From Sphingobacteriaceae bacterium (lineage in GTDB: Bacteria; Bacteroidota; Bacteroidia; Sphingobacteriales; Sphingobacteriaceae): DNA of 64,000 bases. A program made the position numbers and the translations under genes. Location of the stretch: NCBI GenBank assembly GCA_029266635.1, contig JAQSWM010000001.1, positions 496,001-560,000 of the forward strand, read 5' to 3'. The notes under the pieces are model-generated. The model was not told the DNA's origin, made no database searches, and was given only the letters and a program-made list of their open reading frames with translations. This document shows, piece by piece, positions 45,789-50,469 of this stretch. Position 1 is the stretch's first letter, and each line of letters starts with the position of its first letter.

Positions 45789-45820
45789 AAAGCCGGAGCC
45801 GGGTGGTTTCCGGCTTTTTT
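45789..45820 (+). terminator. Rho-independent terminator after the acidic ORF
   Basis: 9-bp stem AAAGCCGGA (45789-45797) and TCCGGCTTT (45809-45817), loop of 11 nt, T-run TTTTTT at the end. Lies just before the convergent dnaX stop. Confidence 0.85.
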
Positions 45821-47633
45821 AGTCTATGCCCAGATTAAACTTTCTCCGAAACTCTTCAAGTTTAGGATTCTTCTCAACCATGTGCTGATACTTCTCGCTG
45901 GAGGTATAAAGTTTCTTTTTTGTTGATTGTTCAGCCTGCCGGCTTACAATATCTATCGCGAAATTCTTCAGTTCTGTGCGGAGGAAATTCAGCAGATCGA
46001 TTTTCTCCAACATCAAGGTATTCTCCTGGATTTTATTTTCTACCTGAACTTCGATTTGGAAATCATCGAGCAACTTGGGCGCCGTGGTAGTCATCAAAGT
46101 GAAGAGGTTCAGCTTGGTTGCCTGCTTCATTTTTGCCGCATAATCGTTCCACAGTCGTATTAACTCGATCTCAGAAAAGTATTCGCGTGCCTCTCCTGAT
46201 AGATATTCAGGCTTCTGCTCTTCCTCCTTTTTAGGTGCGCCGCTAAGCTCTTTCAGGTTTGGGATCAGCGATGCAGAAGTGGGCATGCCATTCAATGGAA
46301 CCGTGAGCTTTGGCTTCTCCTGAACAGGTTCTGGCTTTTTGATGGGCTCCGACGGAGGCTCTGAAACATAGCTTTCGGGCTGTGGCGCAGGAGCCTGGGA
46401 TTGAAGATTAGGTGCGGAAACGGGCTGTGTTTGAGCCGGAACAACCGGTTCCGGAGTTGTTTTTGGGCTTGAAACTACAGGCTCAAGTTTTTTTTTTAAC
46501 TCCCCGGCAGCATCCGGCGGCATTTGGGCCAGGTTCATGGCCGATGCGATGTGGCACATCTTGATCAGTGAAAGCTCAACCTGGAGGCGCTGGTTCTTGC
46601 TTGTTTTATAGTTCAGATCGCATTGGTTTGCGATGTTCAAAGCCGACAGCAGAAATGCCACGGATGAAGACTGAGATTGTGCCAGGTACTTCTGCCTGAT
46701 ACCATCGCTCACTTCCAGCAGCTTCAACGTGGCAGCATCTTTCCCGACAAGCAAATTCCTGAAATGCGAAGCCAGCCCCGTGATGAAGTTATTTCCGTCA
46801 AAGCCATTGGCCAGGATTGTATCGAATATGAGCAGAGCTTCAGCAACATTCTCAGTTAAAAGCTTGTCTGTTATCTGGAAATAATAATCGTAATCCAGAA
46901 TGTTCAGGTTTTCAATAACCGCTTTGTACGTAACGTTCCGGTTTGAAAAACTTACAATCTGATCAAACATCGAAAGCGCATCGCGTAAGCCGCCATCAGC
47001 TTTCTGAGCAATCAGGTGCAAACCATCCGAATCAAAATTCACCGACTCCTTTTGAGCAATAGACGCAAGGTGATTCGCCATATCCTCTACCCTGATCCGG
47101 TTAAAATCGAAGATCTGGCAACGGGACAAAATGGTTGGCAATATCTTGTGCTTCTCGGTTGTAGCGAGGATGAAGATCGCGTATGACGGCGGCTCCTCAA
47201 GCGTCTTCAGGAAGGCATTGAAGGCCGCCTGTGAGAGCATGTGAACCTCGTCAATAATATAAATCTTGTATTTCCCCGCTTGTGGCGGGATGCGTACCTG
47301 CTCAATCAGGCTCCGTATATCATCAACCGAGTTATTGGAAGCCGCATCCAGCTCATGGAAGTTGAAAGAATTGCCCTGCTGAAAAGACCGGCACGAATCG
47401 CACTCGCCGCACGGCTCAATCTGTGGGCTGAGGTTCTGGCAATTGATTGTTTTTGCCAGAATACGGGCGCACGTAGTTTTGCCCACCCCTCTTGGACCGC
47501 AGAACAAAAATGCCTGGGCAAGCTGATTGTTTTTGATGGCATTTTTCAGCGTGTTGGTTATATGCTGCTGACCTACAACACTTTCAAATGTTGAGGGGCG
47601 ATACTTCCGTGCTGAAACAATGAAATTATCCAT
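45819..47633 (-). CDS. dnaX: DNA polymerase III subunits gamma/tau
   Basis: 604 residues. Clamp-loader ATPase: Walker A GPRGVGKT (46-53), zinc ligands Cys65, Cys75, Cys78, Cys81, Walker B DEVH (128-131), and LSRCQIF. Domain III ends near residue 370, followed by a Pro-rich linker (about 385-470) and a C-terminal domain (about 490-604) for binding polymerase and helicase. Between core and linker, codons 379-382 contain a run of ten A (46488-46497); a one-base slip either way hits a stop after 383 or 385 residues, giving a gamma-like product. ATG is only 5 nt from a TATTTTCG box. Confidence 0.96.
   Translation of the reverse strand: MDNFIVSARKYRPSTFESVVGQQHITNTLKNAIKNNQLAQAFLFCGPRGVGKTTCARILAKTINCQNLSPQIEPCGECDSCRSFQQGNSFNFHELDAASNNSVDDIRSLIEQVRIPPQAGKYKIYIIDEVHMLSQAAFNAFLKTLEEPPSYAIFILATTEKHKILPTILSRCQIFDFNRIRVEDMANHLASIAQKESVNFDSDGLHLIAQKADGGLRDALSMFDQIVSFSNRNVTYKAVIENLNILDYDYYFQITDKLLTENVAEALLIFDTILANGFDGNNFITGLASHFRNLLVGKDAATLKLLEVSDGIRQKYLAQSQSSSVAFLLSALNIANQCDLNYKTSKNQRLQVELSLIKMCHIASAMNLAQMPPDAAGELKKKLEPVVSSPKTTPEPVVPAQTQPVSAPNLQSQAPAPQPESYVSEPPSEPIKKPEPVQEKPKLTVPLNGMPTSASLIPNLKELSGAPKKEEEQKPEYLSGEAREYFSEIELIRLWNDYAAKMKQATKLNLFTLMTTTAPKLLDDFQIEVQVENKIQENTLMLEKIDLLNFLRTELKNFAIDIVSRQAEQSTKKKLYTSSEKYQHMVEKNPKLEEFRRKFNLGID
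46436..46502 (-). promoter_or_regulatory. Predicted programmed slippage/frameshift site in dnaX
   Basis: On the minus strand: GGGGAG, then TT and ten A (46497-46488), then CTTGAG. Reading one extra A gives Lys-Lys-Lys-Thr-stop (TGA); one fewer gives Lys-Lys-Asn-Leu-Ser-Leu-stop (TAG). A perfect 7-bp hairpin, CCGGAAC/GTTCCGG with 5-nt loop, lies 33 nt downstream (46436-46454). Homopolymeric A runs in dnaX are known slippage sites in Thermus thermophilus; here the effect is predicted only. Confidence 0.6.
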
Positions 47634-48917: not shown

Positions 48918-49757
48918 TTATGCAAAGAACGGTGTAACTATAGCCAGTATTTGGGCTTTAGTTAGTGGCTCATCGAATGCTTCTGTAGCTGCGTTTACAG
49001 ACAACATTCCGCTTACGCCGCTTAGTTTGGTTATGTCCACTCCGGCTTGAACTACATTATCCTCGCCCGCGTACGTGCCGTTTACGGCAGCACCGATACC
49101 CGTGTCATTTGCTCCGGTAATCCACGGCTTTAACGCAGGCATTGTTCTTGCTCGGCGCATCTGACGTAAATGCGATGCATGCCTAGCCTCAACTGAATGG
49201 ATGTTTAAAGCAGCAGTTAACACCACTTGATTCCCGAGGAGGTTTCCCGCCTGGCCTTTGTATGCCCGCACTCCAGTATCTTCGAAGACCTGAGCAACAG
49301 CAAGGAAGGTGTCATAGTTGGTGAAGACAGTGGGGAATGTGCCTTTCGCTGTAAAGTCGAAATTCGGCTTGGCAACTGCGGCAGATCCCAGAACAGATTT
49401 TAGAAAAGCAACGTGGTTGTTTTCATCTTTAGTGATTTGCTGCAAAGCTCCCAGAGCGGCAGCATTCTGCCCTTGTGTTGTAAAAGTTGCTGTCCGAACA
49501 GAATTTGTTCCTTGCGTATAAAATTCCGCTTCAAGGTATTCAAGTGTCAAAGCAAAATTCAATACATCGGTAACCGAGCTTGAGGTTTGGCCATAAGCTT
49601 TTTTAAACAAGGTTCCCATTGCGAATGGCAGAGCCGAAAGGGCTACTTTCGATCCGAAGCTTGTTATGTTTTTGATCGCTGCACGGCGTGGATTGATACG
49701 CTCGTGGAATTCAGGATCCACTTTTTCTATTTCGTCTATAATATTTAATAAGTTCAT
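48918..49757 (-). CDS. Ferritin-like domain protein (PF13668 type), 2
   Basis: 279 residues. Starts with a charged segment (MNLLNIIDEIEKVDPEFHER) then a hydrophobic stretch with INPRRAAIKNI upstream, probably a Tat or membrane-targeting signal ending AYGQ at about 55. The four-helix metal-binding residues appear as LTLEYLEAEFYTQG, TKDENNHVAFLKSVLG, AQVFEDTGVRAYKG and HSVEARHASHLRQMRR. Related to desiccation-linked ferritin-like proteins. It is 10 nt downstream of its paralogue, so co-transcribed. Metal-binding is predicted; physiological role is unknown. Confidence 0.85.
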   Translation of the reverse strand: MNLLNIIDEIEKVDPEFHERINPRRAAIKNITSFGSKVALSALPFAMGTLFKKAYGQTSSSVTDVLNFALTLEYLEAEFYTQGTNSVRTATFTTQGQNAAALGALQQITKDENNHVAFLKSVLGSAAVAKPNFDFTAKGTFPTVFTNYDTFLAVAQVFEDTGVRAYKGQAGNLLGNQVVLTAALNIHSVEARHASHLRQMRRARTMPALKPWITGANDTGIGAAVNGTYAGEDNVVQAGVDITKLSGVSGMLSVNAATEAFDEPLTKAQILAIVTPFFA

Positions 49758-49767
49758 GTTTGTAGAT

Positions 49768-50469
49768 TTAGTAAGTAGGTAATCCGTCTGTGTTGATTGG
49801 TGTTTTGATGTAGGTTCCGGCTATGGCAAGTACCTGTGTTGGGCTGCGTGAAATATCCAATCCGGTTGATTGATTAACCACATCAGAACCTGCGAAAGAT
49901 CCGGGAGAAATTAGGTCGCGGATGAGGGCTGCGTGCCTGGCTTCCACCGAAACAATTTTACCTGCAATTGCAAGGTAATCTACGTTTTTGATCAGCCAGC
50001 CGGCACCGTTGTACGCCGACACACCCAAATCTTCGAAAGCTTTCGCGGTAGCCAAAACGCTATCTCTGCTTGAAAAATTTATAGAAGAGAAGTCAACCTC
50101 GAGCGATGTTATCGCCGAAGAGCCTAAAGCTGCCTTGAAAAATTCCCGGTGGGCAATTTCGTGGTCGCGAATGTCTGCGAAGTATGAGCTCTCCATGGCG
50201 CTTATGCCTGAGTAAGGGCTCGCCACTACTTGAGTATAGAAAGCTGCTTCTAATTGCTCCAAAGCATAGGCATAGTTTAAGATCGCGGTATCGCCATCAC
50301 CTAAATAAACTCCACGTACGCTACGATCCTTTTTACAACCAGCTGCAATCAGGGCGATGCCTGCAGCTCCGGCACCCGCATATTTCAAGAATGAACGTCT
50401 GTGAACATTAGCAGACAAAAAGTCGCCGGTTGGCTGCTCTTTTTCATCTACGTGAGATAGATTTTCCAT
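49768..50469 (-). CDS. Ferritin-like domain protein (PF13668 type), 1
   Basis: 233 residues. N-terminus has a twin-arginine-like motif in HRRSFLKYAGAGAAGIALI, then AAGC, a lipobox, so a Tat-exported lipoprotein is likely. Ferritin-like helices with conserved acids: YALEQLEAAFYTQV, IRDHEIAHREFFKAALGSS, AKAFEDLGVSAYNGA and VSVEARHAALIRDLIS. First gene of a two-gene operon with a related protein. Confidence 0.86.
   Translation of the reverse strand: MENLSHVDEKEQPTGDFLSANVHRRSFLKYAGAGAAGIALIAAGCKKDRSVRGVYLGDGDTAILNYAYALEQLEAAFYTQVVASPYSGISAMESSYFADIRDHEIAHREFFKAALGSSAITSLEVDFSSINFSSRDSVLATAKAFEDLGVSAYNGAGWLIKNVDYLAIAGKIVSVEARHAALIRDLISPGSFAGSDVVNQSTGLDISRSPTQVLAIAGTYIKTPINTDGLPTY

Follow-up and report, generated by a model that had tools for sequence, protein, structure and literature searches.

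The closest described systems concern dnaX itself. In Thermus thermophilus, dnaX undergoes transcriptional slippage at a run of nine A's (PMC5009743, and the accessible part of PMC1088944), the slippage adds bases, and stops are present in both other frames (PMC5009743). In E. coli, dnaX is subject to -1 ribosomal frameshifting at A_AAA_AAG, with an upstream Shine-Dalgarno (SD) sequence and a downstream hairpin, as given in the accessible text of Antonov et al. 2013 (PMC3711429), which also lists 17 two-ORF dnaX genes with frameshifts (fs-genes) from 12 genera (poly-A in 12 of the genes, ten A's in nine) and already proposes transcriptional slippage for the two-ORF poly-A dnaX. Bacteroidota may be among those nine ten-A genes. 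The abstract of a paper on Blochmannia (PMC3017870) reportedly mentions dnaX together with transcriptional slippage.

The dnaX gene of the window and its run of ten A's

The window, which is the whole 64,000-nt stretch of Sphingobacteriaceae DNA that was analysed, carries dnaX as a single ORF (Table 1). The Pfam matches to the AAA+ domain, the lid and domain III all fell within residues 21-367, and since the domain III match stops at residue 367, both shifted products would retain the clamp-loader core. Searched against PDB, this core matched the tau and gamma chains of DNA polymerase III (best E 2.7e-72), and the linker and tau C-terminal region held the best stretch of no Pfam family among the 25 listed of 32 (E up to 10). 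The run of ten A's (A10) lies at CDS offset 1136 and comprises the last base of codon 379 together with codons 380-382, in the protein context ...GELKKKLE.... The base directly after it is a C, so the slippery A_AAA_AAG is absent, and the heptamer present in frame within the run is A_AAA_AAA. An earlier reading of this stretch, made from the letters alone, had described the A10 at codons 379-382, the stops after 383 and 385 residues, the GGGGAG and the hairpin, and every one of these details held when the sequence was re-read. Elsewhere in the window, the ORF list has two adjoining minus-strand genes at 48918-50469, a pair which we take to be ferritin-like from its appearance; a Tat-like signal (RRSFLKYAG) is seen in the upstream gene.

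Table 1. Features of the dnaX locus, in positions of the window
Feature	Position	Strand	Basis
dnaX, single ORF for tau, 604 aa (604 codons + stop)	45819..47633	minus	TIGR02397, 450.6 bits
Clamp-loader core: AAA+ domain, lid, domain III	46533..47633	minus	PF13177, PF22608, PF12169
Predicted slippage run A10, codons 379-382 TTA AAA AAA AAA	46488..46497	minus (T10 on the + strand)	sequence
TGA closing the +1A (= -1) frame after 383 residues (predicted gamma)	46483..46485	minus	sequence
TAG closing the -1A / +2A (= +1) frame after 385 residues (predicted gamma)	46475..46477	minus	sequence
Pro-rich linker and tau-specific C-terminal region, missing from predicted gamma	45819..46487	minus	ORF and translation
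7-bp perfect hairpin CCGGAAC/GTTCCGG, starting 33 nt past the run, judged incidental	46436..46454	minus	sequence, folding
GGGGAG, 2 nt 5' of the run, judged incidental	46500..46505	minus	sequence, motif counts

The proposed mechanism builds on the RNA-DNA hybrid of RNA polymerase, which is 9-10 bp long. The polymerase would shift the nascent poly(A) on its poly(T) template, giving dnaX mRNAs with ten or other numbers of A's. Messages with 10 (or 10+3n) A's would be translated into tau of 604 aa, and those with one A more, or with one fewer or two more, would reach the TGA or the TAG within a few codons, yielding gamma-like proteins of 383 or 385 aa, with the predicted C-termini KKKT and KKNLSL respectively, that keep the clamp-loader core and lose the linker and the C-terminal region.

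The gene resembles Thermus dnaX in that a single tau ORF contains nine or more consecutive A's, with near stops in both other frames and predicted products of gamma length. The Thermus run consists of nine A's about seven-eighths through the gene, according to the accessible part of PMC1088944, whereas the ten A's of the window gene start in codon 379 of 604, directly behind domain III; Thermus has two tRNA-Lys and the genome of the window one, and slippage is established in Thermus, whereas here it is predicted from sequence. With E. coli dnaX the window gene shares the gene itself and the predicted outcome of tau plus gamma, but its slippery site lacks AAG, its hairpin is 33 nt away and unconserved, and SD-like motifs are not significantly in excess when counted by cluster.

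Conservation of the run and early stops in the other frames

Dinucleotide shuffles of the window contained a mean of 2.12 A10 runs, with at least one run in 72 of 100 shuffles, so that an A10 in the window is expected by chance and the case for function depends on comparison. The genome of the window has 11 A10 matches, forming nine separate runs and thus eight besides that of dnaX, several within ORFs, and the run alone is therefore no proof. For the given amino acids, the probability of an intact run was ~0.007 from the codon usage of the remaining gene. One ORF of this genome (L066:719-2191 on C1), presumably a PP2C-type phosphatase as named from its translation, has an A10 past its catalytic domain; of two relatives of it, one has an A9 close by and the other no run at that place. 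More A10 or A12 runs were seen inside long ORFs of the same genome at L075 (C10), L071 and L072 (C8), of which we take one to be mfd-like and the others glycosyltransferase-like.

For comparison, 228 dnaX loci were gathered: 58 from a set of 60 genomes with the window included (G009 and G045 gave weak paralogue matches and no dnaX locus), 80 loci of named GTDB species, and 90 phylum-wide. Among the named species, the matches of the window's dnaX (the best 80 of 593) included Pedobacter, Mucilaginibacter and Sphingobacterium at 63-66% identity. The phylum search found dnaX in 293/296 genomes, and of the loci taken from it, 30 had the best scores and 60 (L187-L246) were hand-picked across families and layouts. 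Two loci (L065, L146) stop short of the region and were left out, leaving 226 for analysis. The A-run was taken as the longest within 285 nt spanning the end of the core, and the layout of each gene (single or split) was assigned by script, with the two loci that have two long frames (L148, L228) placed by the tail frame and by the longer frame.

Nine or more A's were present at the core/linker boundary in 174 of the 226 loci sampled from the phylum, with the longest run being 9 in 37, 10 in 127, 11 in 7, 12 in 1 and 13 in 2; of the shorter values, 8 occurred in none, 7 in 6, 6 in 8 and <6 in 38. Outside the junction, the same genes have only 7 such runs in 334,373 nt, which predicts ~1.3 in the junction stretches. 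By sample, the run was found in 53/57 relatives, 65/79 named loci, 16/30 top-scoring and 40/60 chosen phylum loci, and carriers include Pedobacter, Mucilaginibacter, Sphingobacterium, Hymenobacter, Chitinophaga, Aquimarina, Flagellimonas and Proteiniphilum. The sequence-only reading had named runs broken by AAG in relatives as evidence that would tell against it; no such runs were found in the window's own family, where all 37 loci, window included, keep 9-13 A's (exactly 10 in 31) despite the use of AAG elsewhere (AAA 1035 and AAG 478 among the Lys codons outside the run in the 44 loci of the Sphingobacteriales set). The run occurs in all three codon phases and its peptides vary (LKKKL, EKKND, KKKT etc.), which indicates that the DNA run is preserved rather than one peptide. 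Lys triplets at the run were all-AAA in 96 cases and mixed in 31, as against 0 and 13 elsewhere, numbers that are indicative only, as "mixed" is probably mostly a run-closing AAG. A null model of synonymous codons across the clusters (expectation 5.2 of 28) was set aside as circular, its set containing run-bearing genes only.

No run of nine or more was found in 52 of the 226 loci, so some lineages can do without gamma made in this way. In six such loci of Bacteroidaceae and similar genomes (L106, L110, L118, L131, L179, L229), a recurring linker peptide stands right after the core, in most of them approximately GR.P followed by KP.F or HP.F.

The frames other than that of tau close early. Among the 130 single-ORF genes, a stop within 5 codons was found in 96% for the +1A frame and in 70% for the +2A (= -1A) frame, compared with 36% and 30% in control stretches of the same linkers, 120-420 nt downstream. 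The 44 split genes described below, with frames taken relative to tau, gave 75% vs 35% for +1A and 84% vs 29% for +2A. The excess persisted with one value per cluster, both when clusters were formed at 75% core identity (p 4.8e-10 and 1.2e-9; 70 of the 73 entered the test) and at 65% (p 1.5e-5 and 5.8e-4; 26 of the 28).

It is very improbable that the run is a functionless accident of three Lys codons, with tau as the sole product: an A10 is predicted by chance in 64 kb and the run is missing from part of the loci, but chance is hard to reconcile with its concentration at the boundary, and some relatives could not make tau without a slip. Unlike the single window, the comparison across relatives puts conservation of the run decisively above chance, and a functional recoding site in dnaX is, on these comparisons, very probable.

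Split genes and the level at which slippage would occur

In 44 of the 174 run-bearing genes the template is split, its own frame ending as gamma and the tau region lying in the +1A frame, a share that is no estimate of frequency, as the samples were not random draws. The direction never varied: +1A by 44 to 0, and by another 12 to 0 within one gut Bacteroidales family. Like the two-ORF poly-A dnaX genes in the accessible text of Antonov et al. 2013, these relatives have poly-A at the gamma/tau boundary and would reach tau via a -1 shift; the window gene differs in being a single ORF, and the layout with gamma in the zero frame and tau in the -1 frame is found in 6 of the 37 loci of its family. 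That these six appear to require a slip for tau makes it nearly certain that the site is functional.

In a rapidly built tree of the core sequences, single and split layouts swap 24 times, and branches with SH-aLRT >=95 force 12 or more of these swaps, both counts being estimates from a one-protein tree with long branches. Two same-genus pairs, L023 (A10, single) with L223 (A9, split) and L221 (A10, single) with L222 (A9, split), differ by one A in the run itself, and in each the tau tail is intact after one added A. Such A9/A10 pairs could partly reflect homopolymer errors in long-read assemblies, but errors of this kind would not account for A10 split genes framed by their surrounding sequence, such as L046-L049.

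The same pairs, with A9 and A10 species within one genus, and the mononucleotide nature of the run would also suit a phase-variable repeat, in which DNA replication slippage toggles cells between tau-coding and gamma-coding genotypes. We regard this as highly improbable, since the length stays near 10 throughout the phylum and genes are split in one direction only. By analogy with E. coli, moreover, both proteins would be expected to be needed in one cell and loss of tau to be harmful.

Slippage that favours insertion fits the +1A-only direction of the split genes, and the addition of bases in Thermus agrees with their constant need for one extra A. The direction fits -1 ribosomal frameshifting in the style of E. 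coli equally well, in which tRNA-Lys would slip back on A_AAA_AAA and meet the TGA nearly at once: the -1 frame is the one needed in 44/44 split genes, and in the 130 single-ORF genes the -1 stop is the closer one, at a median of 1 codon. The excess of stops in the +2A frame, which is the +1 frame of the ribosome, goes beyond what a -1 shift alone would need and is left unexplained by it. The window gene does have the heptamer in frame, and ribosome sliding on poly-A is reported in the accessible part of PMC4363877, yet seven A's would be enough for a heptamer, whereas the genes retain 9-10 and no locus has 8 as its longest run. The efficient E. coli codon AAG closes the run in only 32 of the 174 genes; A_AAA_AAA is far less shift-prone than A_AAA_AAG in E. 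coli, as stated in the accessible part of PMC5009743. Nine is also the length at which selection against A-runs starts in a large proportion of genomes, according to the accessible text of PMC1088944.

The tRNA complement points the other way. The two tRNA-Lys of Thermus have been suggested to be linked to its slippage (PMC5009743), and the genome of the window (95.8% complete) has one tRNA-Lys (UUU) among 35 tRNA matches, an E. coli-like state that counts against slippage in the manner of Thermus and in favour of a ribosomal shift.

The sequence-only reading had argued for transcription from the distance of the hairpin and had pointed to the GGGGAG upstream of the run, and neither argument carries weight. 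A stimulatory hairpin of the E. coli type sits a few nt downstream. In the window, the 60 nt past the run are more strongly folded than their shuffled versions (z -2.3), as a ribosomal signal would have it, but among 107 genes folded (110 drawn at random from the 174) the mean was z -0.55 vs -0.30 in a control stretch (p 0.11), and no common hairpin was seen among the 11 nearest relatives folded; the hairpin was thus rejected as a conserved stimulator. A GGGGAG-like motif was present in a fraction of 0.236 of the 174 genes vs 0.070 in raw counts, an excess that would favour a ribosomal shift but is not significant when each of the 73 clusters contributes one value (mean 0.176 vs 0.077, Wilcoxon p 0.82). 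Moreover, SD sequences are not recognised by the ribosomes of Bacteroidia, according to the accessible part of PMC9976891, which would handicap a signal of the E. coli type and might be the reason that the phylum relies on the polymerase.

The length of the run, its codon phase and the stops in both other frames make a better argument for transcription than the distance of the hairpin does, as polymerase slippage explains the length of 9-10, the indifference to codon phase, the lack of conserved ribosomal stimulators and the stops in both frames. On balance, and despite the single tRNA-Lys, we consider the -1 ribosomal shift unlikely. The earlier proposal that this organism makes both tau and gamma by slippage is supported by the conserved run, the two-frame excess of stops and the relatives that would require a slip, and the A10 is likely to be a programmed transcriptional slippage site and the main mechanism giving the two proteins. 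Slippage in this organism, the polymerase rather than the ribosome as its level, and its efficiency are what we infer from these comparisons.

Other boundary signals and a possible need for two dnaX products

In the gut Bacteroidales family mentioned above, 61 genomes were searched and 59 had a match; 50 loci were read, 20 of them hand-picked from 29 remaining matches with short frames preferred, and together with L125 these make 51. Sixteen of the 51 lacked any signal looked for, 12 had an A-run with split layout and 5 an A-run in a single ORF; the rest comprised two loci with T9, two split ones lacking a run, five that are truncated and 9 with an in-frame UAG.

The nine UAG loci (L249, which is the same gene as L122, L250, L251, L253, L255, L258, L260, L263 and L125) have no A-run. 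In all nine the UAG stands at the gamma/tau boundary and the tau region continues in the same frame, which would give read-through products of 568-621 codons, and the codons after it are AUU/AUA-GCN-AGG/AGA (UAG-AUW-GCN-AGR), encoding the peptide IAR with synonymous changes. RF1 scored above cut-off in 9/9 of these genomes, and UAG also closes other long ORFs at the same loci (mechanical ORFs, some antisense to dnaX). No CUA anticodon was found among the 41 tRNA matches of one UAG genome, an assembly that is incomplete, since tRNA-Ile is absent from it too. A stem past the UAG is short, weak and not constant. The nine loci form one clade with modest support (77). Each of the two genomes of first sighting has the motif once; with up to 3 mismatches it was found in none of 395 genomes of the class, so it looks lineage-specific. 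Programmed UAG read-through is the natural candidate reading of these nine genes; no report of it was found among the open-literature papers listed.

Further signals were seen at the boundary in a few loci. Two sister genomes (L273, L296) have a single-ORF dnaX with a T9 in place of the A-run just past the core. Two GC-rich relatives without an A-run (L293, L298) have GGGGGAG followed by a perfect hairpin of 9 bp (L293) or 13 bp (L298) at the gamma/tau boundary, and in L293, a split gene, tau lies in the -1 frame; this is a possible ribosomal frameshift site. In L149 and L286 the tau region lies in the +1 frame without an A-run, L149 having GGGAG-TGC-TAA at its zero-frame stop, a layout that may represent either a +1 shift or an assembly error.

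Taken together, the loci incline us, with some reserve, to the view that there is phylum-wide selection for two dnaX products made by recoding, for which the mechanism is replaceable: A10 slippage with switching between tau and gamma as the templated product would be common, UAG read-through would serve one gut Bacteroidales lineage, and SD-blind ribosomes of Bacteroidia would be a possible reason that slippage prevails. Single-ORF ten-A genes and the interchange of layouts were not found in the accessible part of Antonov et al. 2013, and beyond that paper no report of slippage in Bacteroidota dnaX was found among the listed papers of the open literature, outside which most subscription journals lie; nor did any describe how widely the run occurs, the excess of stops in two frames or the exchange between layouts.

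If this reading is true, gamma is made by RNA polymerase slippage in a large part of the Bacteroidota, and split dnaX genes of this phylum could easily be annotated as broken though they are intact. Conserved transcriptional slippage of a cellular gene, which for dnaX was shown in Thermus, could then be tested in laboratory species that are easy to work with. The repeated swap of the templated product, together with the UAG variant, would then lead one to ask why the short clamp-loader subunit is needed.
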